Origin: Botryosphaeria dothidea
Lineage: Eukaryota > Ascomycota > Dothideomycetes > Botryosphaeriales > Botryosphaeriaceae
NCBI GenBank assembly: GCA_011503125.2
Contig: WWBZ02000051.1
Coordinates: forward strand, 2,170,001-2,234,000
DNA: 64,000 nucleotides
Direction: 5' to 3'
Shown: piece by piece, positions 1,105-22,391 of the stretch
Layout: each line of letters opens with the position of its first letter
Position numbering within the stretch: position 1 is the stretch's first letter
The notes under the pieces: generated by a model
The model's input: the letters and a program-made list of their open reading frames with translations, nothing else
Database searches by the model: none
What the model was told of the DNA's origin: nothing
Made by a program: the position numbers and the translations under genes

Positions 1105-3203
1105 TCAATGAACACCATTGGCCCCGTTCGTCCCATTAGCAGCTGCGTATGAGCGCTTTACGCCACGCTGGGGTCGAGGGAGTATTCCGGCATTTTCAAA
1201 GGAGCGAAACGTCTCTATCCACGTCTCGTAGGTATCATCGTACCTCTGCCATCCCATCTTTCGGGCTTTGTTGACGCTGCTGATGGTCGGCCAGGACTTT
1301 CCGACCGCCCAGTCCATGAACCACCACGTTCCCCAATCAAATGCTTCAGGATTGCCGCCGTATTTCTTGCAGATGCTCTCCCATACGGGCTTCTTGTCCT
1401 TTGCCCAATTGCCCATCTTGAAACTCTGCTCCATGACCTCGCTATCGCCAGCCGACTCGATGGCATTTTCACCGAGCACCTTTCGGACGTGTCAGCGTTT
1501 GGCCAAGTATGGAAATTGATGTGACATTACCTCGACGCCGTAATAGTCGCCAAGTTTCGGCAGGAGGTTCTTCCAGAAGAACACATCTCCATTCTGGTGG
1601 TTGAAGGCTTCATTCTTTGTGTGCTCCTCCGTGGTAGCCCAGACGGACATGTCGGCCAGACTCGGAGCGTACGAACTATCGTCCACGCAGTGCCAGAAAT
1701 AGCGGTTCCCCGAGAACCGAGCCTTCTGGCCGATCTCCTTGCAGACAAGCATGTATAGTGCCAGCGTGACGGCCTCCGACATTCCGTTTTCTGTCTTTGT
1801 GTTGGGATACTGTGTGCGTCCGTCATAAGGGATGAGTATGCACTTACTTCCGGGGGTGTATCCGACAATCGCATTTGGTCGGATAATGTTGTATGACCAA
1901 CTCCGCCTCTTCGACATCTCCTTCAAACAGTCCTCCCTGTGACGAACAAGTATGTTAGCTTCTTTGTTCTTTAGAATGAAGGGAGAGCTTGACTGACTGT
2001 TTGTAGTAGAAGTTCAGTCCATGGTCCTCATATCGGGGCTCGTCTTCGACCAGCGGTGCTCGTACCGGTCCGAGATGCACTCCGTAGTACTATGAGATAT
2101 TCTTTAAGTATAATTTTGGGATGGCGGGGTGGTGTACTGGTAGGGTACACTTCCACGGTAACCTGGCCTTTCTGGGGTGGCACAGGTTCTAAGTTCGAAT
2201 CTTAGACCGCTTACCTACTCGTGGCATGTGCGTCCCACGTTAAAAGCACACGTACCCGCGTTCTCCCTAGCGGTGATAAGGGGGAAAATCCACAGGTGGT
2301 TAGGGTGGGCCACAAGTGGCATGTACGTCCCACTATAAAAGCATACGTACCCGCGTTCTCTCTGGCGGTAACAAGGGGGAGAAGGGCCAGCTAGGCGCTT
2401 CTAAAAATAAATTTTAAGAGCGCTTTACCAGCGCTTATAAATAGGTAAGCCGGGACTTCTTACGGCTTAGTCTTAAGATTTACAGTCACCTCTCTCTACA
2501 GTTCCTCCCTCTTAGCTACTCTTCCTACTTTAGACACCGCTACCGGTATATAGAAAAAACCATACTAAATAGAGTATCTGCGGATACTACCATTGTAGAT
2601 AGGGAAGGTTTTTACCCGGGCTATCCCAAGAAAGTAGCCACGGTTTCCCCTTCCATATACCCTTACAGATAGCCACAGCTGCATGGACCCTTCGGGGAGC
2701 TAAATCAGCTTAAAATTGAATTTATCTATCTATCTATAATTTTGGGATTAAAGGAACAAAAGAAACTACCTTGCCACCGGTCTGCAAACAGACTCGTTGA
2801 AGAGAATCACCAGCAACCGCATCTATGGCGTTCAAGAAGTTCTCGAAGAGAGGGATGTTGGTCTCAGCAAGAAGCTTGAAGTTATCGATATGAACGTATG
2901 AGGTGAAGTAGGCGTGCGTGACTCCGGAGCAATGAGACTCCATAGCCTGGATCACTTCTTCCAGGGGAGCTAGGAAATCAATTGCGACAAACTCAACGCG
3001 CGGATCCTGCCAATGCGTCTTTGTCGGAGTCCGTGAGGTGATGATGATGCGTTCCCTGAGCTTCTCGTCAGCTCTATCACAGAGAATATTTTTTGTCTTT
3101 ACCATTCTGGTTTGGGCTCACGAATGAGGTGTTCGACGATGGCATTCCCGCTGATGCCATTGGCGCCAGTGACGAAGGCCGTTTTCTTCGGAGTGGGAGC
3201 CAT
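1105..3203 (-). CDS. PRISE-type short-chain dehydrogenase/reductase (progesterone 5-beta-reductase/SirQ-like)
   Basis: Six exons on the minus strand: 3203-3103, 3055-2770, 2089-1998, 1936-1848, 1790-1531 and 1479-1105; all joins keep frame (about 400 aa). The N-terminus has the Rossmann motif TGANGISG. The motif LQTGGK, with the lysine used by PRISE enzymes, ends exon 2, and NFYYKQED, with the catalytic tyrosine, lies in exon 3. The C-terminal region with WFMDWAVGKSW is typical of this NAD(P)H-dependent enone reductase/epimerase-like family. It shares a 420-bp upstream region with the divergent acyl-CoA ligase, so co-expression is likely. The odd feature is intron 2: a SINE has expanded it from about 54 to 680 nt directly after the lysine codon, while both splice sites and a TACTTAA-like branch region near the acceptor are kept. 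The gene may still be functional if the long intron is spliced. The natural substrate cannot be told. Confidence 0.85.
2109..2122. repeat. Target-site duplication, left copy, of the SINE
   Basis: tataattttgggat, identical to 2735-2748. It represents host intron sequence duplicated on insertion. Confidence 0.9.
2123..2734 (+). mobile_element. tRNA-derived SINE with LINE-type TATC tail
   Basis: 612-bp element bounded by an exact 14-bp direct repeat. The 5' end resembles a tRNA: a D-arm-like palindrome GTGTAC..GTACAC (A-box region, about 2131-2150) and a B-box-like AGTTCGAATCT (2192-2202). The body holds two copies of a roughly 66-bp unit (2221-2286 and 2316-2381, offset 95 bp). The 3' end is TTTATC followed by TATC repeats. 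The last 68 bp (2667-2734) closely match the 3' end of the LINE at 11183-11251. There is no coding capacity. It lies in antisense orientation inside intron 2 of the reductase gene. A non-autonomous element moved by LINE reverse transcriptase is the best reading. Confidence 0.87.
2131..2202 (+). promoter_or_regulatory. Internal RNA polymerase III promoter (A and B boxes) of the SINE
   Basis: A-box-like TGGTGTACTGG within 2130-2143 and B-box-like AGTTCGAATCT at 2192-2202, about 55 bp apart, as in tRNA genes. The B box deviates from GGTTCGANTCC at its ends, so activity is uncertain. Confidence 0.6.
2735..2748. repeat. Target-site duplication, right copy, of the SINE
   Basis: tataattttgggat, identical to 2109-2122, directly following the TATC tail. 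Confidence 0.9.
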
Positions 3204-3623
3204 TGTGTGTGATGTTGTGCAGAAAGCAAAAGTATAATTGTCAAGCTTCCGGGAGATCTGGGAGCCGATTAAGAATCCAGGCAAGAGAATCAAGCCTGAA
3301 CTATGGATGGATCTCTTTCCCCGCACTCACTGCGGCGGCAAGCGGCCCCGCTGCCGCAGGAAATTCGCGCCACTCTACCCCGGACCCCGGATCTCGGTCT
3401 GATAACCCGATGTCGGGGCAGATCGGGTCATCCGGAGCGGGTGGAGAAAGCAACTGGCGGAAATGCTGACGCCAGGGGCGGGATTTCGGTTGTGACAGCG
3501 GAAAGGCGGAATACGCTACCCCAGATCTGCACGGTTCCGTCCACACGAGCCGACCCACTTTATACAGCACTTGTATGATCCAACTGTGTCGAGCAACAAC
3601 TCGAGTCACAAACAGAATACACC
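3204..3623. promoter_or_regulatory. Bidirectional promoter, reductase / acyl-CoA ligase
   Basis: The 420 bp between two divergent start codons. It is GC-rich with several CGG/CCG triplets, including GGCGGAAATG near 3457, GGCGGAATAC near 3504 and CCCGATGTCGGGG near 3408, all possible half-sites for a Zn2Cys6 regulator. No clear TATA box on either strand. Confidence 0.5.
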
Positions 3624-5549
3624 ATGATATACCGTAGCAGCAAAGTCTTGGACTATCCCCAGGACGCTACGTTGACGGACATCCTTCTGAACTTCAACTT
3701 CAACAATACTCCGCCTGAGAAGCCCGCAATAATAGATGGACCGAGCGGAAATGTGGTTTTCACATATGAGAGCTTGCGACTAGCTGTTAGGAGTTTCGCC
3801 TCGCATCTGCAAAACCGTCTTGGCGTACAGCCGGGTGATGTTGTGGCAATACTCTCAACCACAAAGGTACAGCTTCCCACTCAGCAGAAAGCCCAGCAGT
3901 TGTGTAACTTCCGAGTTTCAGCATTACTTCCCCGTTGCAGTCCACGGAATCTTGGCAGTCGGGGGCGTCGTCTCCGCATTCAACCCGCTTTATCAGCCCA
4001 AGGTAGGCACATCCACATCCAGTAAATGAAGCACACAAGAGCCAACGAACACAGGAAATCGCCCACGCACTGCACCTATCAAAGCCCAAGCACGTCATCA
4101 TCGAAGACGCCCTCCTCGAACCCTTCTTCCACGGCCTCTCCCTGGCAACCAACCTGACCACCAACCCCACCATCCACGTCTGGAGCGACCACCGCCAACC
4201 CACCCTCCCACCGCAATGCCACCACCTCGACCCCGCCACCATCATCGCCACAGGCAGCCGCGCCTTCACCGCCCCCAGCCTCACGCCCCCGGCAATCGCC
4301 AAGACCCCGGCCTTCATCAGCTTCAGCTCCGGCACCGCCGGCCTCGTCAAAGGCGTGATCCTCACGCACGCGAACATCGTCGCCAACATCCACCAGCAGT
4401 GCGCCGCGCTCGCCGGCATGTTCGCGCCCGCCACCGTCCTCGTGCTCGCCGTCCCGTTCTTCCACATCCTCGGGTTGGCGGGCTTCTGCTGCCAGTACGT
4501 GTGCCAGGGCGCGCCGATCGTGGTGTTCCGGCGCTTCGAGGTGGGCCCGCTGCTGGACGCGGTCGAGCGCGAGCGCATCACGCACGTCAACGTCGTGCCG
4601 CCGATCGCGCTGGCGCTGCTGAACGCGCGGGAGGGGCGGACGCGGGACCTGTCCTCGTTGAGGTGCCTGATCAACGCAGCGGCGCCGCTGAAGCAGAACA
4701 TTGGCGATGAGCTGTGCGCGCGGTACGGCTGCGTCGTCACGCAGTGGTATGGGATGACGGAGGCGAGTCCGAGTCTGGCGTCGCAGCGGGAGGACGAGGT
4801 GGAGGGGCCCGGCCGGGGGAGCGTGGGGAGGCTGTTGCCGGGCGTGGAGGCGAGGGTGGTGGATGAGGAGGGGCGGGATTGTGAGGGAGGTGCGCCGGGG
4901 GAGTTGCTGATCAGGGGCCCGAATCTCATGCTTGGGTATATGATGGAGGCGGGGTTGGAGCGAGCGCGAGATGGGGATGGCTGGTTCCGGACCGGGGATG
5001 TCGGGTACTTCGACGAGAGCGGGTATCTGTTCCTGGTCGACCGGGCAAAGGAGATGATCAAGGTGAAAGGGTAAGCGGGCTTCCTTGAGAGGTCTACTGT
5101 AGAGATGAGCTGATGCGCTGTGAGCAGACATCAAGTTGCACCAGCGGAGCTGGAAGCCATCCTTCTTGGACATTCCAGTGTAGCCGATGCGGCGGTCTGT
5201 GGAATTCATGTTGATGAAGACGCAACGGAGTATCCCATCGCGTATGTCGCGCTGAACGCCAGCGAAGGCAGTCGGGGCAAGAGGGATCCGACGGCCATTA
5301 CGGATGAGATTCGCCAATATGTCGACGGGCAAGTTACTCACTATAAAAGGCTGAAAGGCGGCGTGCATGTTCCTGACGCCATACCGAGAAAGTAAGTGAA
5401 ACCACACCCCCACGGCTTTGGAGCAACTAAAGCTTTGCGAGTCTTGACTAACTCTTCTCAGCCCATCAGGAAAGGTGTTGCGCCGTCTGTTACCCGCAAA
5501 CTTACAAAGGGCCGCGGATGTTAAAAAGACATTGGTTTCGAAATTGTAG
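3624..5549 (+). CDS. 4-coumarate-CoA ligase-like acyl-CoA synthetase, peroxisomal (C-terminal SKL)
   Basis: Five exons: 3624-3866, 3922-4002, 4055-5070, 5128-5391 and 5462-5549; 563 aa, the usual length for the ANL superfamily. It activates a carboxylic acid to its CoA thioester through an acyl-AMP. Visible signatures are the P-loop FISFSSGTAGLVKG, the A5-type motif WYGMTEASP, the hinge region WFRTGDVGY..DRAKEMIKVKG and the C-terminal catalytic lysine in PSGKVLRR. The protein ends VSKL, a canonical PTS1, so peroxisomal import is expected. Exon 3 is notably GC-rich. It is divergent from the reductase and is the first enzyme expected in the cluster pathway. The substrate is not readable from sequence; aryl-propanoic or medium/long-chain fatty acids are both compatible with this family. 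Confidence 0.93.
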
Positions 5550-5584
5550 ATTGTTCTCATAGAGCAGTGAATGAGAAGATTATC

Positions 5585-6457
5585 TTAGAGTATTGACAAC
5601 TGGTCGGAGTCAAGCCTGCCTCCAAACAGAGCATTGAACCAGTCAGTATTGAACATTTCTTTTGATGGGTCTTTGTTGCTAGCATCCTTCCCATTATCTG
5701 CGCGAAAAGATACGGTACCGTTCACGGCCCGGTGGAGCATTTCTTCGAAGTCGTAATCTGCCATGACCAAGTCTCCGATGTCCGGAGATGTAGCTCCTTC
5801 TGTCTGGACTTGCCCGCCACCTGGTGCCGCCGATGATGATACTCCTCCACTTGAAGCTTGTTGCTGCCAGTCGAGTGCATTGCCAGTGTCGAGATACGCT
5901 GCACCTGTAGTTGGAATGGTTTGTGTCCCTCCGAGGAAAGACATTGACAATGTCTCGAGGGCCGGGTCAGTGGCCTGGTCCGATGTACGTATTGGGTTCA
6001 TGGAATTGCCATTAACAATGTTCCCCTGGTCAGGACCCGATGTGCCGTCTCCAAGAACCGCCGTGACCATGTGATTCAGCCGTAACACAGTCCGTATGAG
6101 CTTTCCGGATACCCATGTCTTCGTGCAGTAATTCCGCAGTGTCTGGACTGCTAAAATAGTCGGGGTGCCATATGTTGCGCGAAACAAGGGCTCCTTAACT
6201 ATTAGTGCGAAAGAGATTACTGTGGCGTTGAGCAGGTAGTGGATGAAGGGGAACATGAACTTGGGGTAGTCGTCTGGTATTTGGCTGAATTGGCCAATGA
6301 TGCTATGGGCGAGCTGTATGCACATGACTTCATTCCCGATGGAGTTTTGCTCTTTTGAGGGAGCAGTAGGGGGTTGCTGCAAGAGTGGCTTTCGAATGAG
6401 CAGCCGAAGGCTGGAAGTACGCTGCGTGCCGGTCAGTGAATCGAAAGGGGAAGACAT
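5585..6457 (-). CDS. Fungal transcription-factor-like fragment lacking a zinc cluster
   Basis: Uninterrupted minus-strand frame from the ATG at 6457 to a stop at 5585 (290 aa); the frame is open further upstream without an ATG. The part around the segment with IPDDYPKFMFPFIHYLL and TLRNYCTKTWVSGKL resembles the C-terminal end of the fungal-specific regulatory domain of Zn2Cys6 factors, followed by a low-complexity acidic tail. No Cys6 cluster or other DNA-binding domain is visible upstream before the hydrolase gene ends at 6862, leaving no room for a full N-terminus. It is either a truncated remnant or a co-regulator without its own DNA-binding domain. Its place between pathway genes suggests it was the cluster regulator. 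The functional assignment is weak. Confidence 0.55.
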   Translation of the reverse strand: MSSPFDSLTGTQRTSSLRLLIRKPLLQQPPTAPSKEQNSIGNEVMCIQLAHSIIGQFSQIPDDYPKFMFPFIHYLLNATVISFALIVKEPLFRATYGTPTILAVQTLRNYCTKTWVSGKLIRTVLRLNHMVTAVLGDGTSGPDQGNIVNGNSMNPIRTSDQATDPALETLSMSFLGGTQTIPTTGAAYLDTGNALDWQQQASSGGVSSSAAPGGGQVQTEGATSPDIGDLVMADYDFEEMLHRAVNGTVSFRADNGKDASNKDPSKEMFNTDWFNALFGGRLDSDQLSIL

Positions 6458-6834: not shown

Positions 6835-6845
6835 CGGAATTTCCG
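6835..6845. promoter_or_regulatory. CGG-N5-CCG palindromic site
   Basis: CGGAATTTCCG, an inverted CGG pair with the spacing used by several Zn2Cys6 factors. It is upstream of the regulator fragment and just past the hydrolase stop. The same 11-mer occurs at 18384-18394 and 35014-35024. Function is inferred only. Confidence 0.35.
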
Positions 6846-6861
6846 CCCAAATCCCGCCGGT

Positions 6862-8167
6862 CTACAGCTTTGCGCTTCCCGCCGACCCGACGACCTCCTG
6901 CAAGATTGCCGCCACCTCCTCGGCGAGGAGATGTGGGTGCGTCATGGGAATCTTAGTTCGTCGGGTTAGCATCACGCGCTACAATTGGGGATGCGAGGCA
7001 CTTACGAGATGGCCAGCGCCCTCGAAGATTTTCACCCATCCCGGGCTCTTTGACATCTTCTTGATCTCTTCACGGCAATCCGCATTGCTGCCAAGTAGAT
7101 GTTAGCTGCAAACCGCCTTTTCGTTTTGTTGAGCGCGAGCCTGACATGACCTTGCTTTCTCTCCCTACGAGAAAGTAATGGCGTTGACGAGAACTTGCAA
7201 GCAATTCGAGGATCGCCGGGAACGGTGCGGCAAGGTAAGTAGCCTGCATTGAAATCAGCGAGATGGAAAAGAAGACTTCGATGGATCCATAATATACCGC
7301 TTCCTGCTCCTTTGTTGTTTTCAGTGTCCAGTATGTTTGACCCTCAGAACTGACTTCGTGGATTGCCGTGTCCTGCGCAACATTGACTTATCAGCATGTG
7401 CGTTGGAGAGTTGCGCCCTACCCGACCTACAATGTACTTTTGGAGCTGTTCGGGATGCCAATCTGACATTCCCTTGCTTTTGGAGAAGGCTGCTCGGGCT
7501 TCTTCATAACTGGGCCACCTGTCACGCCTCTTCAACGCCTGGTCGGCAATAATCTGGGTCTGCCCAGGGAACTGGAAAATGATCGGTTCCACAAATACAG
7601 TGGCCAGAAGAGCTGAAGGGGCCATCATTGCGGCATGGGATCTACGGTTTTGTTAACAAATTCTTTTACACCAGGCTTCATCGCTGATACTCACAGCGCC
7701 CCGCCACCAAACGAATGACCAACACCAATAACAGGCGCTTCGACTTGGAAGTGCTCCAAGACTTTCAAAATGTCTCGCGAGTGATCGGGCCAGAATGCTG
7801 TGAGCTTTTGTCAATCAAATTGAAATGCTTCGGAACCCTCTTTTTTCATACTTTTGTCCTTGACCAACTTCCCAGTGTTCATCACAGCGCTATCACCGTG
7901 GTTCGCAGCATCCAAAGTAAGTATGCGCTTAGTGCAGGAAGAAACTCCGGGCTTATCCAGAATTTCCTTTATGATCAGCTCCCAGAACCCCTTGTTGAAT
8001 GATGTTCCGTGCGTGAGTAGTAGACTCAATCCACGAGCTGGTGCCGTGGGGATGATGTACTCCTCTACCACCAGGTTGAGCTTGACGTCGGGAGAGATGA
8101 CAGTGTCAGGATTGCGAGGGAAACTGGCCTGAATCGTGTGAACACTTTTCTGGTAGGTCGGAGACAT
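6862..8167 (-). CDS. Peroxisomal alpha/beta hydrolase, AKT2-like toxin-biosynthesis-protein family (C-terminal AKL)
   Basis: Six exons: 8167-7852, 7797-7695, 7641-7431, 7372-7146, 7087-7006 and 6951-6862; 342 aa. The fold is marked by LLLTHGTSFNKGFW (oxyanion loop), the nucleophile elbow GVGHSFGGG and a C-terminal FEGAGHL carrying the catalytic His. The protein ends GSAKL, a PTS1. Relatives include the peroxisomal hydrolase AKT2 of Alternaria AK-toxin clusters and many proteins annotated as toxin biosynthesis protein; the family probably acts on CoA thioesters or esters, but its reaction is poorly defined. It lies in the same direction as the regulator fragment (264 bp or more away) and the aldehyde dehydrogenase. 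The fourth intron (7145-7088, donor GTCAGG) was chosen because only that donor keeps frame. Confidence 0.87.
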
Positions 8168-8764: not shown

Positions 8765-10514
8765 TCACTTGATGTGGACACTCTTTGGCTCCAAGTATTC
8801 ATACAGCCCGTATTTCCCCAGCTCTCTACCACTGCCACTCTGCTTCGTTCCTCCGAAAGCAGTGTTCAGTTCCGGCAGATACGGTGAGTTGACTGAGACA
8901 CCGCCGCTCTCAAGCTTACTCGAGACGCGCAGTGCGCGGTTTAGATCGTTCGTGTATATATTGGCTGCACCGATGAATTAGCTGTTGATTCATGCAACCA
9001 GAATCAAAGTGGGTTCATACCTGCAAGCCCATACACACTGTCGTTGGCGAGCTCTATGGCTTCTTCTTCAGTCTTGAACGTCTGGATTGTCAATACCGGA
9101 CCGAATATCTCCTCACGAATAATCCTGCTACTCTTTTGTGGGTTGAAGAAGATGGTCGGCTCGATGAACTGTCCCTTGGCACCCTTCCGGACACCTCCGG
9201 CCAGCAGTGTCGCACTCTGCTTTCCAATCTCCACGTAAGACATGATGCGGTCAAATTGGCCCTTGTCTACTACAGGGCCAAGTTCGGTCGATGGGTCCAA
9301 TGGATCAGACCCGAGCGTTTTGCTCGCTGATTCGAAGATGCCCTTCACCGCAGCGGTAAATCTGTCTGCAATGTTCTCCTGAACGAGGACTCTGGAAGAT
9401 GCTGCACCACGTCAAAGGCTTTTCTTCCATCAAGCTGGAAGCAATACTCACCGACACAGATCTGGCCAGAGTTTGCCAGAAAGCCGCCGCCGACGCTAAG
9501 TGGCAATCAGCTTCTGCTTCAACGAATTTGACAGCCAGACTAACCTTTGCACAGTGGCCTCGAAAGTAGCATCATCAAAGACAATTGCGGGGGACTTTCC
9601 ACCCAGCTCCAATGTGACCCGCTTCAAGTTGCTCTTCAATGCCAGCTCCTGGATTGCCCTGCCAACATTGATTGAGCCGGTGAAGCTGATCTTTGTGATG
9701 CCAGGATGTGATGCGAGAGCTTCTCCGGTTGTCTGAGCGCCAGAAACAAATTGAACAACACCCGGAGGAAACCCAGCTTCGGCGAAAAGAGGGCCCAGAG
9801 CCAATGCGCCCAGAGGTGACTTCTCGGAAGCTTTGAAGATGAACTGCAGGGATTCCGTTCTCAGTCCTTCTCCTCGCTAGCGTAAAGGAATCGAAGACGG
9901 CTGAACTTACGCAGTTGCCAGCGGCCAGAGCCGGTGCTATCTTCCAGCCAATATACATGAAAGTTGCATTCCACGAAGCGATTCCAGCGCAGACCCCCAA
10001 AGGCTCGTATCTCACGATCTTGTACACGCCGTTCTCCTCGGGATATGAATCACCACTTATCTTGTCGGCCAGCCCCGCGTAGTATCTGTAGACTTGCACC
10101 ATATGGGCAATGTCGAACATTTTCAAAGCAGTCACAGGCTTTCCGGATGGCAGAGATTCGAGAGTTGCAAGACGGACGGCATTGTTCTCAACCAGATCAG
10201 CAAATTTGAGAAGACATTCCTGCCGCTGAGCGCCGGTGAATTTTCCCCATGGCCCCTCCCTTCTCGCGCAATGGGCTGCTGTTACTGCGGCGTCTACTTC
10301 TTTTCTCCCCGCGGTTTGGATTTTCGTGGGGATGATGGAGTCGTCAAAAGGATTCACCAGGGTCAAGGTCTCCGTGCTTGTCGAATCCACGAACTGTTCA
10401 CATGTAGTTGATTCAGCTTTTGTGCATACAATATTTCTGCCCAACTAGACAGACCTCATTGTTGACGAAGAGCTTCGACGGAATGTCAATTCCTTGGTAC
10501 TTAGACGCCGCCAT
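8765..10514 (-). CDS. NAD(P)-dependent aldehyde dehydrogenase
   Basis: Six exons: 10514-10455, 10393-9911, 9843-9545, 9495-9452, 9401-9021 and 8964-8765; 488 aa, normal for the ALDH superfamily. It oxidises an aldehyde to the acid. Visible motifs are the N-terminal SKLFVNNE|FVDS, YEPLGVCAGIASWN, the general base in LELGGKSP, the catalytic Cys in NSGQICVA (split by an intron after G), EEIFGPVLTIQTF for cofactor binding and a C-terminal GGTKQSGSGRELG. It ends SVHIK, with no PTS1, so it is probably cytosolic, unlike four of its neighbours. It is divergent from the ABM-like gene with a 277-bp shared promoter. In the pathway it could supply the acid that the ligase activates. All catalytic residues are present. 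Confidence 0.93.
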
Positions 10515-10791: not shown

Positions 10792-11168
10792 ATGGCATCG
10801 GCTGTGGTTGCCGAGTTGGTCGAGATCCCGCTGGCGGTTCCCTTTGGCAAATTCGTCCGGGAACACAATTCCGCATTCCTTCCCGTGCTCCTCAAGCAGC
10901 CGGGGATCATCTCGGTCAAGACTGGTAAGTAAAGTGATCCCGAATTCCGTCAAATGCTAGTACGACTAATCAGAGATGGTGTGAACAGGAAAGAAGCTGA
11001 ATAATTCGAATGGACCTTCAGCTGTTTCGCTGACGCTATGGCGAAGCCTGCAGGACCATGAGCGCTTCGCCAACAGCCCTGCTGCTGGCCCGTTCTTTGA
11101 GAAACTGGCGCCTTTCACGACGGGACCTCCCACGATAGGTCATTACTATTTCAACATCAGTTCGGGGT

Positions 11169-11182
11169 CACATGCCCACATA
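11169..11182. repeat. Target-site duplication, left copy, of the LINE
   Basis: cacatgcccacata, identical to 16326-16339. It is coding sequence of the ABM-like gene (S-H-A-H-I). Confidence 0.92.
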
Positions 11183-11399
11183 GATAGATAGATAAATTCA
11201 TTTCTTCCCGATATAGCTCCCTTACGGGTCCATGCGGGGCTGGCTATCTATAGTTATTTTACTCGAGGGGGAAAACCTTATCGCCTGGCAAAAACCCCTC
11301 CTTTCTATCTAGGCCTGTTTATCCCTACTAGTTCTGTTTTTCCTTCTTACCGGTAGCGGCTGCTATGGCAGCCCTACATTCGCCCACTAGCCCTACCCC

Positions 11400-14300
11400 T
11401 TCAGTCCTTATCCTCGTAGTTATCCGGGTCCTAGTATTCCCGGTGGTCCTCCTGGTTCCTCTTCCTGGTTGTCCTCCTAGATTAGTTCCCTAGCTAGACT
11501 AAACTGACTAAGCAGCCCTAGGCGTAGGAACCAGCCTGTTACTGCTTTGATCCCCTTCTTTATTGAGAGAAGGGAGTAGTAGTCCGTGGTCCCTGCCCTT
11601 TGGAGCATCTGTGCCCTGCCCTATTAGAAGTGGGGGCAGAAGAGGAGGATATACTTTAGGGTTTGTCTATGCCAGCCGCATGGACAGGCAGGACTAGGGT
11701 ACCCTAGTACCTTGCGCCTTAAGAGGAAGTCCTCTAGTCTAATATGCTCTATACGTAGTAGGGTGGCGAGTGTACTCTATGGCTTAGATAGTTCGCTGTG
11801 GATTTGTCTGATTTTTGGGTTCCACTGTATGCTTTGGGCTACTAGCTTGTCTTATCTTCCCTAGCTAGTAGACTTTATCCATCTCTCCTTCCACTTATTC
11901 CTATATACTATACGTAGCTTCGTTCGCTCCGGGAGACTCTAGTAGGTAGAGGGGCAGTAGTTAAGGAGTAAGTTTACCTTTTTTCTAAGCAGGGTTCTTC
12001 TAGTAGGGCTAGTGGCGCCTCTAGTACTTAGAGTAGCCCGAGCTATCTATTTAATACTCTGGTAAGTTTCCTCTACTACTGCCGCGACTAGGCTATCCCT
12101 AGCTCTAATAGCCTAGGCTAGTGCTAGTTCGTCCAGGTGTAGTAAGAGTAGGGGAATCCCTATCTTATACTCTAAGGTTTATATGCTAGTTAACTTATAC
12201 GCCCCTGAGATAGTGCGTAGGCACTAGTTTTGGATCTTCTTTAGTGGCTGGATGGTTGTTTTTCTCCACCCTAGGATTTCCTCTAGGGTATACTATACCC
12301 TACAGCCGTAGGTAAGGACTAGCCTTACCACGGCCGCATAGATATAACGGGCTTTAGTAAATAAGGCTCCCTAGGTAGACGCTGCGAGTCTAGAGAGAGA
12401 TATGCACTATTTAATTGCCTTAGCTCCTATTTCCCTAATATAGGGTCCCTATCTAAGCTTGTTGTCTACGTAGACTCCTAGAATCTTAATTATAGGCTCT
12501 AGGCATCTAGTAAATCTAGGGATACGGATCCCTACTGCTATATTAAATCTCCTTAGTTTCCTTATAAAATAAATAAGGTAATACTTATCGGGCGAGAAAG
12601 CTGACCCGTAGGTAGCTGCCTAGTGCTCGTAAATTTGATATACTCCCTCTAGTATCCTATAGTTCTATTCTATAGATCTACTAAAGGTTAGGATATTAGT
12701 ATTATCGACGAATCTAAGGAGGAAGGTATTACCCCTATATAGCTGTATAAGTAGGTTAGAAGCAAAGAATAGGTAGAGTATCGGCGATAGTAAGGATCCC
12801 TAGGGAATCCCGGTTAAGGTCTAGATTAGTAGACTAGTAAAGTCTCCGAAGGATAGCTAAGTGGTACGGTCCTATAGAAAGGATCGAGTAAATCTTTCTA
12901 CCCATTCTGGGAGTTTTGCTATCCTTATATTGTAGAGAAGCCTTCTATGAGATACGTAGTCATATGCTCCCGAGATATCCAGGCTAAGGACTAAAGCCAC
13001 TAGCCCTGGGTCTTATGCCTAGATAGTATAGATCTGTTCTATGAGCAGGTCAAGAGCTGCTACTGCGGATCTATTTCTCCTAGCTCCTATCTATATATTA
13101 GGGAGTAGGCCGTATGCTTTAGTAGCCTAGGAGATTCTATCTACTATAATCCTCTCAAGTAGCTTCCCTAGCGTATTAAGTAAAGTAATCGGCCTAAATA
13201 ACTTAGCTTTGGTATAGTCGTCCCTCTGTAGCTTCCTAAGGACTACGGTAATAGAGCTTTTAAACTGCCTAGGGTGGTATCTAAGTGCGAGGTATCCCTA
13301 GAAGAGCCTGGTGAGGGGTCCCCTTAGTGTCTTAGCGCATTGCTTTAGGAACCTGTTGGTAATCTTGTCTGGGCCTGGTGCCTTGTCTAGGGGAAGCTTC
13401 TTGATGGTGTGGAGGACCTGCTCTTCAGTAAGGTCTTGGGGAATCTCTACTGGCACTGGGTATATACACCCATCCAGATCTGAGAGGTCGGTGGCCCTGG
13501 GAGGTGGGAAGAACTAGTTAGTAAGGATTTCTGCCTTAGACTGGTTGTCGTAATATAGTTATTTATCTGCTCCCTAGAGGGGTGGGAACTGAGGTGGGGC
13601 TAGAGGTTCCAGTGCCCTTGTTCTTGCCTACTTTAAGAGCTTCTAGAGTGTAGATGGGTCCGAAGTAATCTCAGCTACTATTCTACGCCATGCTTTTATT
13701 CTATCTCTTCTAATCTGCCTCTTCTTGCTATTAGCAATAGTTTAGTATACTACCTAGTCCTCCTCCCTCCCTATGGCCGTCTACTTCCTTCTAGCTACTC
13801 TAGCCTAGTGCACTAGGTCCGAATACTCCTTTGTCCATTATATAGAGGCCCAGGGCGAGGGTCTCGCTACTAGGATGGTCTCCTAGATTATCCTTTGGAT
13901 GGCCTCCTAGAGTAGTATAGTAAAGTGATCTAGGTCTGCTTTAGTATCAAGAGGGGCTGCTTTAAGGTGTTCGAGCTTTAATTAGAGTATATTATTAGTT
14001 CTCTTCTAGTCTACTTTCTTCTACTAGGGCCTTAGGGGGCGTAGTTCTGCGGGGGTAGGAGAAAAATTAAGTATAGTGAGGATAGGTAGGTGGTTAGAGG
14101 ATGATTCGAGCTCCTGGCTAACTCTATAGCTAAGGATTCTCTCCTCTAGCCACCGTAATATAAAGATAAGGTCTAGAGTACTCTCGCTGCTACTATCTCG
14201 TCTAGTAATAGTGCCCCTTAGAAGGGCTAGGTTAAGATTAGCTGCGGTAGCTATCTTAATTAGGTTATCCGCTAGGGTATAGTATATTAGGGAGGTTATA

Positions 14301-14748
14301 CCTTCCTAGATAGGATGGTAGAGGTTAAAGTCCCCTAGGAGGATGTGCTTCCCTAGTTTTCTAAGAACTTCCGGTAGAAGAGATAGGGTTTCTAGAGCTG
14401 TACTAGTATAAGAGGCTGGCGGGGGATTATAGTAGTTATAAATATAGATTGTACGTGTCTTAGTAGTAAGGGATAGTATAATGAGATCTGGTGAGTGGAC
14501 TGTTGCTTGCTAGGAGTCGGGGGTAATAGCCTTGCTTATAAAGAAGTAGGTTCTTGCCGTCCCCTCCTAAGGGAAAACTGTATGGTAGGCAGGGTATCTT
14601 GCTGTTATCTTTACCCTCGGATTCCTCTAGGGTTCCTGGATAGCTAGGATATAGTAGATTTTTGGGTCCACCTCCTTGAAGAGCGGGAGTATTACCCTAT
14701 CCTTGCTCTTATAGACGTTATACTATACGATAGAGAAAGCGCCTGTAT
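11400..14748 (-). pseudogene. LINE ORF2 (AP endonuclease and reverse transcriptase), degraded
   Basis: Boundaries approximate. The N-terminal endonuclease is recognisable by ILAIQEPW (near 14655-14630) and LLGDFNLYHPI (near 14345-14315). The reverse transcriptase active-site box near 12693-12715 reads FVDN where FVDD is expected, a G to A change that removes a catalytic aspartate. Stops are frequent throughout. The copy cannot make an active protein. Confidence 0.75.
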
Positions 14749-16308
14749 CTAATATTGACTTTCTTCTATCTCTAAGTCAGGCTGCGAGGAAGTCGGTGGT
14801 GTGGGCTGCGAGGCGGAGGAAGTTCCCGCGGGCTCCTCCCCCGAGGCATGCTGGGAGCTATTAAGTCCGGTAAACCGCATTTGGTTAGGAGGCGGGGGGC
14901 GGCTTAGGTCCCTTAGCCTGCCTGGCCCTCTCTTGGCCGGCTCCTCCTCTCTGGGCCTCTTCCTTGGCCCGACCGTTAACCAGTTGGTTTGGGGCTGTGT
15001 CTTAGCCATAGGGCATCCTACCCTGTACCTCTCTGGAGCCGCTAGGCGGGCCTAGGTGGCCTTTGCCTGGCGGGCTCTGCGTGCTGGGCAGGCGTTGCTC
15101 CAGGCCGTGTGCTTTTGTGAGTAGTTTGCACACTGTATTTTTTCCTTAGGGCACTCTTGGGTGTTATGTGCCTCTGTACACTGGCTATACTTGTTCTCCC
15201 TTCTATAGTAGGTGGAGATATGGCCATAGTCCTGGCACTTAAAGCACTAGGTTACTGTAAAGGCTACACTATAGTATTCTGCTATGTAGAGCGCATAGTT
15301 ACTAATGAGTCCTTTAGTAATAATCTGGTTAGCTGCCTCGGGGTCTATAGTGCTAAGAATAATCGCTGAGTGAGTTTTCCCCTCTGGGAGCTTCCTCTTT
15401 AGCCAGGCTAGCTTGCTAATACGTAGTCCTGGGTATAGGGATAGATTCTGATCCTAAAGGGTTTGGGCGGCCTGGGGATCCTTAATGTTAATGCCTTTGA
15501 GGGGGACGTTGTGGACTAGCACTGAGTAGAGCTGCTGGTTAGGGCGGACTTCCCTACCTAGTCCTGTAGTCTATTCCTGGTCCTGGAGGAGGGCTGCTCT
15601 GGTCTGAGTATTAGGCACGAAGAGCTTAACGTCCCCACTAGGGAGCTTCTTAGCAGCTAGTACCTTTTTACACGCTAGGCTTTTCCCTGCCTAAATCTTC
15701 TTAATAATGGCCTTATTGGAGAGGTTGGCGACCTCCTGTCTATTCGTCTTATCTGGGAAGTATAGGGTAAGCTTAGTGGTAGCCGGGGGGGTAGGAGGCT
15801 TTGGGACTGCTCGGGCTGTAATGTTGGCCTAGCTAGGCACTGCGGGCGTAGGGGTAGTCTAGAGTCGGCTAACTATCTTCTGGACTTGCTGCACTTCCTT
15901 GAGGATATCCTTAAGGCCTGGCTCCTTGGTGGTCGCCTCCTGGTAGATAGTAATATGATCCTGGAAGATTGTCTTGGCAATGTCGAGAAAATTTTTCACC
16001 TGGCTAGAGAGGACTAAAGGGAGGCCAGCGGATACTTGTAGGGCTTAGAGGAGGGTGTCTGCTGTTTTTGAGGCTCTTTTAACGTATTCTACGCTGTACT
16101 GAGTGTTCTGCGGTTTGTTGGGGGTGCGCTGTGGTTGGGTAGAGGTGGTCACTGGAGGGGGCTGTTCGCCCCTTCCTGCGGCTTCTATATTAACCACAAC
16201 GCGGCTGCAGCTGCTCTGAGTGGTATTTCGAGTCTCGCTGGGCCTAGGAGAGTCCCTGGGGCCCTCTCCCGGCGCCGTAGCTTGGGGTCGATTTTTTGGC
16301 GTGGTCAT
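14749..16308 (-). pseudogene. LINE ORF1 (gag-like, CCHC zinc knuckles), degraded
   Basis: Minus-strand frame starting at the ATG at 16308 with several in-frame stops, the first after about 88 codons near 16045. Between about 15070 and 15270 it carries knuckle-like Cys/His spacing beginning CFKCQDYGH, as in ORF1 of Tad1-clade elements. The C-terminal part is rich in Pro, Ser and Lys/Arg (KRPREEEPAKRGPG). It would bind the element RNA. The stop immediately before CFKC is a TAG where CAG is expected. Confidence 0.75.
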
Positions 16309-16325
16309 GTTTTCCTTATTTCCTC

Positions 16326-16339
16326 CACATGCCCACATA
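16326..16339. repeat. Target-site duplication, right copy, of the LINE
   Basis: cacatgcccacata, identical to 11169-11182. Host reading frame resumes directly after it. Confidence 0.92.
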
Positions 16340-16787
16340 CCTTTTACGGATTTCCGCAAGTACAAAATTACGGCGGCAGATGATTCAGAGCGAGCTTCAT
16401 TGGCTGCTTGGTCTGTACAAGGTGGAGGACTCAATGCTGTTGCGGATTGTCTAGAGGACAAACAACTCATCACAGCAGCACTTTTCGGAGAGAGTGCAGA
16501 ATCTGTGCGAAAGCGGGTAGTCACGTCGCAGGGTGATGTTGTCTTGAGCGGATCATTTACGGTGGAATGGGAGGCAAAAATAGCGAGCCCTTCACTTTAA
16601 GGGTAGAGGCTATTCCAGCTGACGATAAGAAATATTATATCTATTTCAAAGCGCTTTGCTGGGAAAGACAATTTCTGTGCACAGCGAAGTATCTTGAGAA
16701 ACATCTGCTTCTTTCAAACAACTTATGAAAACAGCCTTCAGATTTTCTGCCGAACTATGAGAAACATCTAAATATGTCCAGAAAAGA

Positions 16788-18239
16788 TCAAAGCTTAGAA
16801 AAGGCCTGTAAAGAATCCCACCTGGCCTTCGTCGCTTCCGTTGCGTCATGGCCGTAAAGCCACTGTTGAAACAGCGTATTACCCATTGCGTTCGGGCTCC
16901 CGGGATAGTCGCCTGCACCGAATATCTCCTCACGCATGTCCAACATCGGGCCCTCACCCATGTGGATGAAGAACCTGTTGGTCCACGATCCACGCTGAAT
17001 CGTGTGGACTCTTTCAACTCTGGACTCATAGAAGAACTTCAGCAGCTTCGGCAGTTCCGAAACTGATCTCAACTTGGACAGAGTGACACCAAGAGCGGCA
17101 GCGTCTTCAATCGCCATAGCTGCACCTTGGGCAAGGTAAGGCAATGTTGCATGCGAGGCATCACCGATGACGACCATCTTCCCTGAGGGATGAACCCAGT
17201 CCGTGAATGGCTTCAGGTCGATTAGTCGCCATTTTTCAACGCCATCTGGAAGAAAGGACAGCAGTTTCTGGACTCTATGTAGATTTGGTGGTTAGTATCA
17301 AGTAGCGGCGTGTTGTAAAAATCATCAATCAGCTTACATCGGGGCCCATCCAGTGTATGCCTTCCGCACTTCCTCCGCATTAGCGGGTGCCCTATATCCT
17401 TTCATCGTCCGGTCATCTGGAATGACCATGAGCAAATTGAAGAATTTCTCCTTTTGCATGTTATAGCTATACCAACCCTCAGTATGGCCAGTGTCATGTT
17501 GTGTGGGAATGAAACATACCCAATGATGTGATGATCGGGCCCAAGAAATTGTTCGAACCCTGGAGTGCGCACAAGTGGAGCAAGTTCTGGATCTGCGAGT
17601 AATTTCTCGCGGGGTACGACGACTCTGAAGCAAGTGTCTCCTGTCTCATGGGGCTCCACGCTCTTTGCCAAATACTGTCTTGCCAGGCTCTTGACGCCGT
17701 CTGCAGCAACAATCAAATCCCCCTTGACGACTTCACCATTCTCCAGAACAACGCTTCCCTCTTCCGGACGGTACTCAGCAACCAAGCAACCCTTCTTAAC
17801 CTCAATTCCTCTCTTCAGGGCGGCGTTGAGTAAAGCGGTGTGGTAGTCCGGACGATATACTTGCCAGTATGGCGCACCGTACTTCTGGGGCATTTTGCTC
17901 ATGTCTGTAAATCCTTGCGGCTTTCCAGTCTTCCAACTGCGGTAATTGATGCGATTTGGCTTTGACGCGATTGCTTCCATATCCTCCCGAATGCCCCAGC
18001 GGACCAACTCTCTCGCAGCATTGGGAGGAACCTGTACTCCGGCTCCAATCTGTGGTAATCATCAACATCCAACGATCTCATTGACGCTTCACGGATCTCA
18101 AAATGCTCACTTCGACAAATCCCGGAGCCTGCTCGAGCACGACCACCTCATGGCCGGCTTCCCGCGCAGCAATTGCCGTGCCGAGGCCGCCCATCCCCGC
18201 TCCCACAACAATCACCTTGATGCTCAGCTTCGCGCTCAT
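16788..18239 (-). CDS. FAD-dependent aromatic-type monooxygenase with PTS1 (C-terminal SKL)
   Basis: Four exons: 18239-18111, 18049-17520, 17466-17338 and 17274-16788; 424 aa, the usual size for salicylate-hydroxylase-like group A monooxygenases. It would use NAD(P)H and O2 to hydroxylate a substrate. Signatures are the N-terminal GAGMGGLG for FAD binding, DLIVAADGVKS (DG motif) and MVVIGDASHATLPYLAQGAA (GD motif). The C-terminus is LQAFSKL, a canonical PTS1, so a peroxisomal location is predicted; this is unusual for the family. The intron-2 acceptor was placed at GGTATAG to keep frame (HHIIG|YNMQKEK). It lies tandem with the acyl-CoA dehydrogenase, 381 bp apart, and its promoter has a CGG-N5-CCG site. 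Substrate unknown. Confidence 0.9.
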
Positions 18240-18620
18240 GTTGGCTTAGATATCGAAGAAAAAAGGATGAAGACGATAACCTGTGTATGTATGTAGTGTA
18301 TCGCGAGTAATCAATTGTGTTTATACTTTTGTTGGTTTATTCCGATGCGGTGACCCGCACGTGTGGGTTTAACCCCGACAAAGCGGAATTTCCGTCGCTG
18401 CAACCCACATTTTCCGGGTCGATTGACCAGTAAGATGAGCCGCTCTCCTTACAGCTTGCTTCCACTTTTCCACATGAGGAATGATGGACTTTATTATGGT
18501 ATCCGTGGGGAAATAGCCTACATCACTATTAAGCTTGGCCTTAAGCCTTGGAAAGCAGGTAGCGTATTGTTTACGCTTCATTTTGCAGAAAAGATACGAT
18601 TACTTCTATATCCTCCAGCA
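18240..18620. promoter_or_regulatory. FAD monooxygenase promoter with CGG-N5-CCG site
   Basis: 381 bp. CGGAATTTCCG at 18384-18394 is 145 bp upstream of the start. GTGACCCGCACGTGTGGG near 18350 adds an E-box-like CACGTG core. Confidence 0.45.
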
Positions 18621-20255
18621 TCAAAGTTTGGAAGAATTCTCCTGAGAAAGCACCTCCCTCACTTTGAGAGCCCTCCGTACCGCCAAATCAAGGAGAATCT
18701 CCTCACTGCCTCCCGGAACTGTGATTGCCTTGACATCGCGCCAGATGCGCTCGACTCGCTCTCCACGTCCACCTCTTGTGAGGCCGATTCCGCCCATGAT
18801 TTGAATTGCCTCACGAACTACATGCTCCAACACAATACCAGAATGCGCCTTCAATTGCGCCGTTGGTCCGGCCAGATGCAGATTTGCGTCTTCGGTGGAG
18901 AGTGCACTGATCTGGAAAATCGTGCTCTGACCGAGTGCATCAGCAAAGTTGGACCATCATGCAGATATTTTCTTACCTCTATCCACGCCTGCAAAGCTTC
19001 TGTTTCTCGGCTCATATGTGCGAACTTAAAGCGAATGACTGGGTGGTCCACGAGTTTCCTGCCGAACGTCTCTCTACTTAATGCGTAGCCCATGGAATCC
19101 TCAAGGCAGACTCTGGCGGACCTTAGAGATTGCATGGCGATGAAGAGCCGCTGCACGATGTCATTAGTTGTTAAGAGAGAGAAAGTGCATCCGCTCACCT
19201 CATGGTTGAAGTTTGAAACAATGTACTTGAATGCTTTTCCGCGCTCCCCCACCACATTTTGGACGGGCACTTTGACTTCGTTGAACTCCACAAATGCTGT
19301 GCCAGCTGATGAAGAACCAGACATCTTCATATGGCGTGTTTCTAGCCCCTCACCCTGGGGGATGACCAACAATGTCTGACCGCCCAGTGGGTCTTTGACA
19401 AGTGTCAGGAAATAATCTGCATACATTCCGGAAGTGATCCACTACTCCACAAATCAGCATGCACCTGTAACCAAGACAATCTAATAGAGGACCCACTTTC
19501 TTCTGACCATCAACGACGAAGAACTTTCCATCTGCGGAAAGCTGAGCTTCAGTGGATATGCCTTGCACGTCCGAGCCGGCGTTCGGTTCAGTGATGGCAA
19601 GACACAACCTCTTCTGCCCCGAAAGTATTTCCGTAATTACCCTGCAGAGAATTAGCATCTATTTTGCAGACTTATTTAGTACAGGCGGACCTCTCTTTCA
19701 ATTCTTTACTGCCAAACTTCTGGACTGGGGGAATCGCAAGCGTCTACAACGGACCGTGAGCGCTCATCTAAACATCGTCTTTGCAGTAAATACTTACCAC
19801 ACCACCAATTAGCCCATTTGCCACACTACTCGCACGTCAGTCTACATTGACTCATCTAATTCTCAGAGCCACACTTACCCAATGCCACCCACCCTCGTGA
19901 ATTCATCATGAATCACAAAGTCGTGAAACCCATCCCACTGCTCCGGCCGCACATCCCCGATGATGGGAAACTTTCCGCGCCAGTCCTCAGGGATTTTGCT
20001 CCCCGCAGCCATTGGCATGAGTATACCAGCCTTGGCCGCGGCCTCATAGGCCGAATGCGGTATCGTGGTGGCTTCTTCCCACTGGTGCGCGAAGGGAATA
20101 ATGTTCGCCTCAACCCACTGGCGCATCACGTGGCGGAGGCGCCGATGGGAGTCCTTGATATAAGGAGACGGGATACCGCGGGACCACGGAGGCTCAGCAT
20201 AGGGAATTGTGGACCCGTAGAGCCATGGGTTTTGCTCGGTGGTCGTGTTTGACAT
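18621..20255 (-). CDS. Acyl-CoA dehydrogenase, peroxisomal (C-terminal SKL)
   Basis: Seven exons: 20255-19879, 19825-19798 (28 nt), 19743-19691, 19641-19497, 19441-19199, 19150-18977 and 18911-18621; 436 aa. All phases agree. It introduces a 2,3-double bond into an acyl-CoA using FAD. Recognisable parts are RVGGIGVANGLIGG, AIPPVQKFGSKELKER, the FAD/substrate motif LAITEPNAGSDVQG, WITSGMYADYF, and the C-terminal IQIMGGIGLTRGG..ERIWRDVKAI. The C-terminus NSSKL is a PTS1, so unlike mitochondrial dehydrogenases this one should work in peroxisomes. It is divergent from the P450 gene (390 bp shared promoter). With the CoA ligase it forms the first steps of a beta-oxidation-like route. Confidence 0.93.
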
Positions 20256-20645
20256 GGTGGTAATGTCTTGCGGAGAAATGCACATTCGAGCGGCGGAGCA
20301 GATGTGGAGCGAGGGAAACCGAAAATTAATCCGCAACTCTGTGTTGATACAAGCCCACTATCGATAAGACCCCCAGATCCAAGAGTTCCCCGGAGTCTGC
20401 ACGTATGACCCGGGGTTTGCGGGGGAGGATGCGGGCTCGGCCGACGCGGTTCCCGCTTGCGGAACCCAGGCGGAAATCCCGGATGCCGACCCATCCGCTC
20501 AACACCTCGCCTGCGGGGCTGCCGAGGGAGGCACTTCCTCTGAGAGAGAGGATGACAGAGCAACTGGATGGCGTAATTCCGAGAGCATGCGGATGGAAAT
20601 AGAAGAGATCTCTTTTTGCTTGTGCTGTGGAAACCAGGCGCAATC
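20256..20645. promoter_or_regulatory. Bidirectional promoter, acyl-CoA dehydrogenase / P450
   Basis: 390 bp between divergent starts, GC-rich in its middle. TTGCGGAACCC near 20457 and GGCGGAAATCCCGG near 20470 repeat the CGGAA theme of the other cluster promoters. Confidence 0.45.
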
Positions 20646-22391
20646 ATGTTGCTGCAATATCTTCTTGAGCCATTATCGTTCCGCTTGGTCTTCACGCTCT
20701 GCATTGTTGCAACATTAGGTCGCCTCCTGCTCAACAAATACGGAACTGGACTCAGTCATGTTCCCGGGCCGTTTTGGGCAAGCTTCACTGATCTGTGGAG
20801 ATTCTGGATAGTATGGGGGAGGCGGCCGGAGCTGGTTCACATCGAGTTGCACAAGAAATACGGCAGGCTCGTGCGTCTGGGGCCGAGAACAGTGTTGGTA
20901 TCCGACAACGCAGCGGCAAAGACCATATACGCTCTGAATTCTGGATTCGTAAAGGTGAGTCTAAGCGACACGTCATTTGGAAGTCATTCGCTGACGGGTC
21001 TGCTGGCAGTCTGATTTCTACCCCGTCCAGCAGACTGTGGCGAGAGGCCGGCCACTCCAGTCTCTTTTCAACACGACAGATGAGGCCTTCCACGCAAAGC
21101 TGCGGCGAGCTGTGTCTAACGCTTACGCGATGAGCACCATCGTTCAGTACGAGCCGCTGGTAGATTCAACCACAACGGCTTTCCTGGCCCAACTAACCGA
21201 ACGGTACGCGGACCGGGAGGACTCTTCCGGCATCTGCGACTTCGGAACATGGCTCCAATTCTACGCATTCGACGTCATTGGAGAACTCACCTACTCCAAG
21301 CGGCTGGGCTTCGTAGACCGCGGCGAAGACGTCGACAGCATCATATCCAACCTGGAATGGCTCCTGAACTACGTCTCAGTGGTGAGCCCCGCAAACCTAA
21401 ATTCAATTATACGTCCACGATCTGACTCTGTCCACAGGTCGGCCAAATGCCGCTCCTCGACCGCCTCCTCCTCAAGAACCCGCTCCGCCTCTGGAAGAGC
21501 GCGCTCGGCTTCACCAACTCCAACACGCCCGTCGTCGAGTTCGCCAAGAAGCGCATGGCCGAGCGCGGCACCGCCTCCTCCTCCTCCTCCTCCACCATCA
21601 CCAGCCCCGACGACGGACGCCCGCGCCGCGACTTCCTGTCGCGCTTCGCCGCGGCGCACGAGAAGGACCCGGGCTTCGTCAGCCAGGAGCGCGTGCTCGC
21701 GCTGACGGTGGCCAACATGTTCGCCGGGTCCGACACCACGGCCATCTCGCTGCGCGCCATCGTCTACCACCTGATCCGGCGGCCGCCCGCGCTGGCCGCG
21801 CTGCGGGCCGAGTTCGCCGCGATGGAGGCGCAGGGGGTGTGGGCGCCCGGGACGGCGCTGGTGCGGTGGGCCGACGTGCGCGACCTGCCCTATCTGAGCG
21901 CGGTGGTCATGGAGGCGCTGCGCGTGCATCCGCCGGCGGGCTTGCCGCTCGAGAGGGTCGTGCCGCCGGCGGGCGTCGGCGTGTGCGGGACGTTCTTGCC
22001 CGCGGGGACGATTGTCGGGTGCTCGGCGTGGACACTGCATAGGGATGAGGCTGTTTGGGGGGAGCGGGTGGACGAGTTCCGTCCGGAGAGGTAGCTTGAG
22101 GCGAGTGAGGAGCGGAAGGCGGAGATGAAGAACAGCCTCTTTGCGTTTGGGGCCGGGGCGAGGATGTGTATTGGGAAGAACATCAGCTTGTTGGAGATGT
22201 ACAAGTTGGTGCCTGCTATCCTGCGGAGCTTTGAGGTAGGTTTGATGCGGTGCGGTCTTTCAGAGCCTTTGCTGACTGGTGTTGGGTAGCTTGAGCTTGT
22301 TCACCCGGAGAAGGAGTGGACGATTCACAACGCATGGTTTGTGAAGCAAAGCAACTTCCACGTGAAGCTGCGCCGGAGAGTCAAACAGTAG
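20646..22391 (+). pseudogene. Cytochrome P450 (pisatin-demethylase-like), one in-frame stop before the haem motif
   Basis: Exons 20646-20954, 21010-21381, 21438-22235 and 22290-22391 would give 526 aa. The N-terminus has a hydrophobic anchor and HVPGPFW; the I-helix is MFAGSDTTA, the ExxR motif is EALRVHP, and the haem loop FGAGARMCIG is intact. Between them, DEFRPER is followed by TAG at 22092-22094, where the conserved PERW motif expects TGG. Sequence after the stop stays in frame and P450-like to the natural end. As read, the protein would lack its haem cysteine. A 45-nt stretch 22091-22135 has GT..AG ends and a length divisible by three, so splicing it out could bypass the stop at the cost of 15 residues. 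A run of Ser codons (TCC) lies near 21578-21593. Confidence 0.88.

Follow-up and report, generated by a model that had tools for sequence, protein, structure and literature searches.

Why do four neighbouring enzymes of the plant-infecting fungus Botryosphaeria dothidea end in a peroxisomal targeting signal, and do they serve one pathway? We analyzed a window of 64,000 nucleotides (assembly GCA_011503125.2, contig WWBZ02000051.1, positions 2,170,001 to 2,234,000), in which an original prediction, made from the sequence alone, had placed a cluster at window positions 1105-22391. Four of its products were said to carry a type 1 peroxisomal targeting signal (PTS1): a coenzyme A (CoA) ligase, an alpha/beta hydrolase, an FAD monooxygenase (FMO) and an acyl-CoA dehydrogenase (ACAD). 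Comparison with other fungi showed that the linkage of the FMO, ACAD and hydrolase genes is conserved. The reading that we favor, to which we give an even chance, is a peroxisomal route in which the side chain of a C6-C3 plant aromatic acid is shortened and its carboxyl group is then removed. What is directly established is the identity of the genes, their PTS1 tails, the family placement of the ligase, hydrolase and FMO, and the linkage of three of the genes.

The cluster reads in the order below. Three divergent gene pairs, as had been claimed, are seen: PRISE/ligase (420 bp apart), aldehyde dehydrogenase (ALDH)/ABM (277 bp) and ACAD/cytochrome P450 (390 bp).

1105..3203, minus strand: PRISE-like reductase; six exons; Pfam PRISE, 1.9e-30; insert resembling a short interspersed nuclear element (SINE) in intron 2
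3624..5549, plus strand: 4-coumarate:CoA ligase (4CL)-type acyl/aryl-CoA ligase; 563 amino acids (aa); PTS1 SKL; Pfam AMP-binding, 5.2e-79
5585..6457, minus strand: orphan open reading frame (ORF); 290 aa; no Pfam match
6862..8167, minus strand: MpaH/Lpx1-type alpha/beta hydrolase; 324 aa; seven exons, with an intron at 7244-7297 (54 nt); PTS1 AKL
8765..10514, minus strand: ALDH; 488 aa; Pfam Aldedh, 9.7e-152; ends in HIK, no PTS1
10792..16600, plus strand: ABM-like gene, split; 5' part 10792-11182, 3' part 16326-16600
16788..18239, minus strand: FMO; 424 aa; PTS1 SKL; decarboxylating 4-hydroxybenzoate/vanillate 1-hydroxylase-like
18621..20255, minus strand: ACAD; 441 aa; PTS1 SKL
20646..22391, plus strand: P450; stop codon TAG in frame at 22092-22094, ahead of its FAFGAGARMCIG heme motif

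The FMO model matches the B. dothidea database protein P0001 letter for letter, and the hydrolase model, after removal of the 54-nt intron, is identical to B. dothidea P0241. The best match of the ACAD, P0121, differs by 5 substitutions over 426 aa, and none of the 120 ACAD matches listed bears the name B. dothidea. The 290-aa ORF, omitted from the earlier eight-gene account, has something of the look of the C-terminal part of a transcription factor and is possibly the relic of a cluster regulator.

All four predicted PTS1 ends were present in the spliced models, which use GT-AG introns: LVSKL in the ligase, GSAKL in the hydrolase, AFSKL in the FMO and NSSKL in the ACAD. The pattern is absent from the ends of the PRISE reductase (which terminates in GVH), ALDH, ABM, orphan ORF and P450 products. 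Peroxisomal location is predicted here from these C-terminal signals. We scored homologues with a strict pattern, [SAC][KRH][LM], and a looser one, [any][KRHN][LMI]. A strict PTS1 ended 17 of 26 FMO, 25 of 62 ACAD and 13 of 36 hydrolase homologues, where 0.06, 0.16 and 0.09 were expected by chance; the strict pattern occurred at a frequency of 0.23-0.27% at internal positions of the homologues and not once at residues -6 to -4. Strict tails are therefore far above chance in all three groups, with retention greatest in the FMO and partial in the ACAD and hydrolase. By the looser pattern, the counts were 23/26, 56/62 and 30/36, respectively. Strict tails were also found in more distant homologues (22 of 91 further FMOs and 37 of 58 further ACADs), and because they are commoner in the distant ACADs, PTS1 is a family habit for that enzyme. 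Ends of the -SNL, -ANL and -PNL type, which are not canonical PTS1, occur among the FMO orthologues P0003, P0004, P0012, P0014 and P0017, on which the limits of fungal PTS1 could be tested.

Linkage was surveyed for the FMO, ACAD and hydrolase, with the ligase, PRISE, ALDH and P450 outside the survey, and a shared contig was inferred from exact agreement of contig size within the same named organism. Rows entered were 26 of the 120 listed FMO matches, 63 of 120 ACAD matches (P0121-P0182 plus P0201; 62 for the PTS1 counts) and 36 of 53 hydrolase matches. The FMO fragments P0027-P0029 were excluded from both FMO groups; P0201 was included since its contig match had been noticed, and the other 57 distant ACADs were left out of the contig comparison. 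FMO and ACAD shared a contig 12 times, in 11 genera, FMO and hydrolase did so 10 times, counting B. dothidea, and ACAD and hydrolase 13 times. The three were found together 6 times, in Pyrenochaeta, Paraphoma, Exophiala aquamarina, Alternaria panax, Baudoinia and Cylindrodendrum, and 16 of the 26 best FMO matches (again with B. dothidea) shared a contig with an ACAD or hydrolase match.

Many of the shared contigs exceed 1 Mb, so that contig sharing alone is not proof of neighborhood. Locus numbers among the FMO, ACAD and hydrolase matches lie near each other in ten genomes: A1O9_12581/12586/12591, G7Z17_g2923/2929/2931, G6011_10136/10140, ACET3X_008818/008819, BAUCODRAFT_149158/149161 (the ACAD of the same genome is 123618), VF21_04900/04907, AK830_g3613/3622, VD0002_g1119/1132, KVR01_007620/007623 and PEBR_00284/00300. 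The VD0002 pair is outside the 12 FMO-ACAD counts (the longest contigs differ), and the Penicillium rubens pair P0201/P0262 is the weakest match, with differing locus prefixes. Scattered genes in relatives, or homologues lacking PTS1, had been named in the original prediction as grounds for abandoning it; on the former point the three genes do share contigs, but on the latter a strict PTS1 is limited to the 17, 25 and 13 homologues counted above. ACAD-hydrolase contigs without a close FMO (52614, 88712, 312165, 1003764, 1441243, 2302499 and 5066249) belong to Penicillium, Aspergillus, Thelonectria, Dactylonectria and Diaporthe.

What reactions might these enzymes carry out? The best solved match of the ligase was 4-coumarate:CoA ligase 3a9u (1.2e-83). 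Its neighbors are the PRISE gene, the orphan ORF and the hydrolase gene, with no 3-ketoacyl-CoA thiolase gene beside it. The hydrolase, labeled AKT2-like in the original prediction, was nearest among solved structures, in both sequence and fold, to MpaH' of mycophenolic acid synthesis and yeast Lpx1, at 23-24% identity. Ser134 (GHSFGG) and His294 (GAGHL) were invariant in 31 of 31 rows, and the acid position is a Glu, as in Lpx1, whereas it is an Asp in MpaH' (motif FVEP, compared with LLDP in MpaH'). The Asp of MpaH' has a catalytic role at this position. We classify the enzyme as MpaH'/Lpx1-type and predict that it hydrolyzes acyl-CoA.

The nearest solved structure to the ACAD was 3oib (1.6e-45). 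A 2025 review (PMC12388069) calls the genes that turn phloretic and dihydrocaffeic acid into the Aspergillus niger route unidentified, and the ACAD is a candidate for this desaturation step. Peroxisomal beta-oxidation with dehydrogenases has been reported in Neurospora and suggested for Podospora (PMC3338752), whereas another paper treats acyl-CoA dehydrogenases as markers of non-peroxisomal beta-oxidation (PMC4259357).

The FMO has the group A FAD monooxygenase fold (Pfam FAD_binding_3, 4.2e-18; AlphaFold2 model with a pLDDT of 92.7), and by sequence and fold comparison its nearest solved relatives were decarboxylating 4-hydroxybenzoate/vanillate 1-hydroxylases. The best matches, GsMNX1/TvMNX1, PcMNX1, CpMNX1 and VibMO1, have FAD_binding_3 in common with it, but identity in the structural alignment was 36% and the window FMO belongs to a clade of its own on a long stem. 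In a tree of 116 of the 120 rows (four shorter than 360 aa were dropped), this clade comprised 26 rows with SH-aLRT support of 100 and a stem of 1.71, in a quick search run without bootstrap and with the characterized enzymes not among the rows. By its similarity to these enzymes the FMO is predicted to act as a decarboxylating 1-hydroxylase. Salicylate hydroxylase, the name on many FMO homologues, was set aside, as the 1-hydroxylase structures scored about twice the bits. A PTS1 on such an FMO, which the original prediction counted toward an undescribed pathway, is by itself nothing strange: besides the kinship with 1-hydroxylases, a basidiomycete FMO clade in the tree, near the 1-hydroxylase kind, had a strict PTS1 (SKL, AKL or SRL) in 9 of 21 members, and from these tails hydroxybenzoate hydroxylases in peroxisomes may be less than rare.

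We infer the substrate, the order and direction of the steps, the products and the localization of the enzymes from these assignments. In the favored route, the 4CL-like ligase would make an aryl-CoA ester, and the ACAD would introduce or restore the alpha,beta double bond in an ester of the dihydrocinnamoyl type. The next steps would fall to housekeeping enzymes of the peroxisome, a hydratase/dehydrogenase and a thiolase of the FoxA/KatA type encoded outside the cluster, which would yield hydroxybenzoyl-CoA; from this the hydrolase would release the benzoate. The FMO would add a hydroxyl at the carbon that bears the carboxyl group, releasing CO2 and leaving a hydroquinone. The P450, ALDH and PRISE enzymes, all without PTS1, would do the preparatory work on the acid outside the peroxisome, and the ABM-like protein would act alongside the FMO.

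A narrower version, specific to arylpropanoic acids, strikes us as unlikely in its full detail. Here phloretate would be converted to 4-hydroxybenzoate and on to hydroquinone within the peroxisome by the ligase, an arylpropanoyl-CoA dehydrogenase, the hydrolase and the 1-hydroxylase, as a means by which plant-associated fungi clear host phenolics. Phloretic (dihydro-p-coumaric) acid is the product expected from apple dihydrochalcones. The ACAD would supply the desaturation step that lacks identified genes in A. niger, and the CO2-releasing hydroxylase would have been relocated to the peroxisome.

If the favored route is correct, the window would offer a linked set of candidates for the genes of a peroxisomal aromatic pathway, genes that are mostly unlinked in A. 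niger, and among them a candidate for the conversion of dihydrocinnamic acids discussed in the 2025 review (PMC12388069). A flavin hydroxylase that releases CO2 would then also reside in peroxisomes, and the picture of fungal breakdown of lignin-type phenolics would have to be redrawn. An undescribed peroxisomal pathway had been proposed for this locus; a conserved set of PTS1 CoA-thioester enzymes with an aromatic substrate favored is what we see, but the kind of pathway is already published. It is the arrangement of genes that is new relative to the papers listed in searches of open-access literature, among which we recognized no description of this cluster.

Closest in kind is the CoA-dependent shortening of aromatic side chains in A. 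niger, predicted to be peroxisomal, where HcsA, FoxA and TheC carry PTS1 and KatA carries PTS2 (PMC8140964). The A. niger set (HcsA/FoxA/KatA/TheA-D, with VhyA downstream; PMC8140964, PMC8336404, PMC12388069) resembles the window cluster, by description, in a PTS1 CoA ligase, in thioester release and in a benzoate product, and VhyA, a flavin vanillate hydroxylase giving methoxyhydroquinone, is the counterpart in likeness of the window FMO. In the window, unlike in A. niger, the ligase, ACAD, hydrolase and 1-hydroxylase-like FMO are clustered and all have PTS1. A thiolase gene adjoins the ligase gene in 37 of 50 Eurotiomycetes (PMC8140964), but the thiolase neighboring hcsA has no equivalent beside the window ligase, and the window has a dedicated ACAD. 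When A. niger thioesterase genes were deleted singly, no phenotype was seen with ferulic, caffeic or p-coumaric acid; deletion of theB caused one on m-coumaric acid (PMC8140964). Expression of peroxisome genes rises in Candida parapsilosis on 4-hydroxybenzoate and on hydroquinone (PMC8929692).

The AK-toxin clusters offer a second comparison. AKT1 (carboxyl-activating), AKT2 (a hydrolase) and AKT3 are peroxisomal, as is MpaH' (PMC9134587). The AK-toxin clusters and the window cluster both have a carboxyl-activating enzyme and an alpha/beta hydrolase that each carry PTS1, together with a P450. In contrast to the AK-toxin clusters, the genes of 1105-22391 include no enoyl-CoA hydratase, polyketide synthase (PKS) or HMG-CoA synthase, and have the ACAD and FMO instead.

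Is the cluster still whole in this strain? The ALDH, PRISE, P450 and ABM neighbors listed in the original prediction are all present, but it overlooked a retrotransposon resembling a long interspersed nuclear element (LINE) that splits the ABM gene, the SINE-like insert in the PRISE gene and the stop codon in the P450.

11169..16339 including target-site duplications, minus strand (reversed): LINE-like retrotransposon; insert 11183-16325, 5,143 bp; 14-bp direct repeat CACATGCCCACATA
2109..2748 including duplications, plus strand: SINE-like insertion; insert 2123-2734, 612 bp; 14-bp target-site duplication TATAATTTTGGGAT

The LINE lies within the ABM coding sequence. Two of its four ORF pieces matched endonuclease-reverse transcriptase and reverse transcriptase models, weakly and below cut-off, and its indices of repeat-induced point mutation (RIP) were 1.93 for TpA/ApT and 0.75 for (CpA+TpG)/(ApC+GpT), compared with 0.54-0.55 and 1.33-1.34 in the flanks. 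The SINE-like insert, which also has RIP-type dinucleotide composition, sits in PRISE intron 2, ends in a tail of TATC repeats and contains GTTCGAATC, which we take to be a B-box-like motif. The two elements have a 3' tail in common (2664-2734 and 11183-11252; 56 of 71 positions, 79%, ending TTTATCTATCTATC), as would be expected if the SINE borrows the LINE reverse transcriptase.

Over 96 aa, the 5' piece of the ABM gene shares 48% identity with the N-terminal end of P0026 of Alternaria dauci, and the Pfam ABM match to the pieces, at an E-value of 0.025, fell below cut-off. P0026 is an FMO gene model that opens with an ABM-like stretch, with the hydrolase at the next locus number. It is probably two adjacent genes merged by annotation, and the fusion suggests that the ABM gene is a cluster member. 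In the P450, the 3' piece still matched Pfam p450 (6.2e-11), and 104 formal splice options would bypass the TAG. One of them, a 45-nt GT-AG intron at 22091-22135, is in frame and keeps most of the PER and heme loop, but it would alter the PER motif, delete residues up to the heme loop, and be shorter than the introns modeled in the other genes, which are at least 47 nt. The ABM gene is broken in this strain and the P450 is probably broken, which probably leaves the strain without a complete working pathway; the four PTS1 enzyme genes are intact.

We weighed whether the cluster is only a decaying, functionless remnant in this strain. The two inserts, their RIP-type composition and the P450 stop would fit such decay, but we think it rather improbable, as the remaining six enzyme genes keep open frames that can be spliced, the FMO and hydrolase models match B. 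dothidea database proteins exactly, and the 45-nt intron could remove the P450 stop in frame, at a cost to the PER-to-heme segment. That PTS1 is a habit of each family and the neighbors form no single pathway is more improbable still, and we give it very little weight: strict tails do extend to FMOs and ACADs outside the orthologous groups, but linkage across separate genera and near locus numbers in ten genomes are hard to explain without joint function.

A biosynthetic role, in which peroxisomal enzymes trim and release the acyl chain of a secondary metabolite while the P450, PRISE, ABM and FMO proteins decorate it, in the manner of mycophenolic acid or AK-toxin, is possible and in our judgment unlikely. 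The hydrolase shares its fold family with MpaH', AKT1, AKT2, AKT3 and MpaH' act in peroxisomes in such pathways (PMC9134587), VibMO1, a close fold match of the FMO, is named a prenyl-4-hydroxybenzoate decarboxylase (PMC12915361), and PRISE and ABM types seem odd for plain catabolism. Yet no PKS, nonribosomal peptide synthetase or terpene synthase, as had been predicted, nor any prenyltransferase, is found among the genes of 1105-22391, and a linked FMO and ACAD in 11 genera would be less usual for a special toxin. Doubtful, too, is the degradation of a non-aromatic plant acid, such as a terpenoid or cyclic one, by an ACAD-hydrolase core with the FMO acting on another ring system. Three observations support it: 7 of the 13 ACAD-hydrolase contigs lack an FMO among the 26 best FMO matches, the nearest solved relatives of the PRISE reductase are progesterone 5-beta-reductase and iridoid synthase, enzymes of steroids and iridoids, and the FMO clade stands on a long stem. 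The ligase, however, is nearest to 4-coumarate:CoA ligase, and the FMO to hydroxybenzoate 1-hydroxylases. Because of the seven contigs the FMO is not universal, and the substrate and end product of the peroxisomal aromatic route stay inferred; ACAD and hydrolase are perhaps a wider two-gene module.

Among the NCBIfam matches listed, just broad ligase, ALDH and FAD matches appeared, all below cut-offs, and both ABM pieces were unmatched. Scans for tRNA genes and Rfam families found nothing inside the cluster and one tRNA-Arg at 50534. A second FAD-dependent oxidoreductase gene lies at 25294-27223 on the minus strand, about 3 kb past the P450, with Pfam FAD/NAD-binding matches on 26585-27223 and none on 25297-25902. 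Farther out are a nucleoside-hydrolase-like protein (33148-34083), a glycoside hydrolase family 5 (GH5) cellulase (41308-42120) and a major facilitator superfamily (MFS) transporter (57321-58079).

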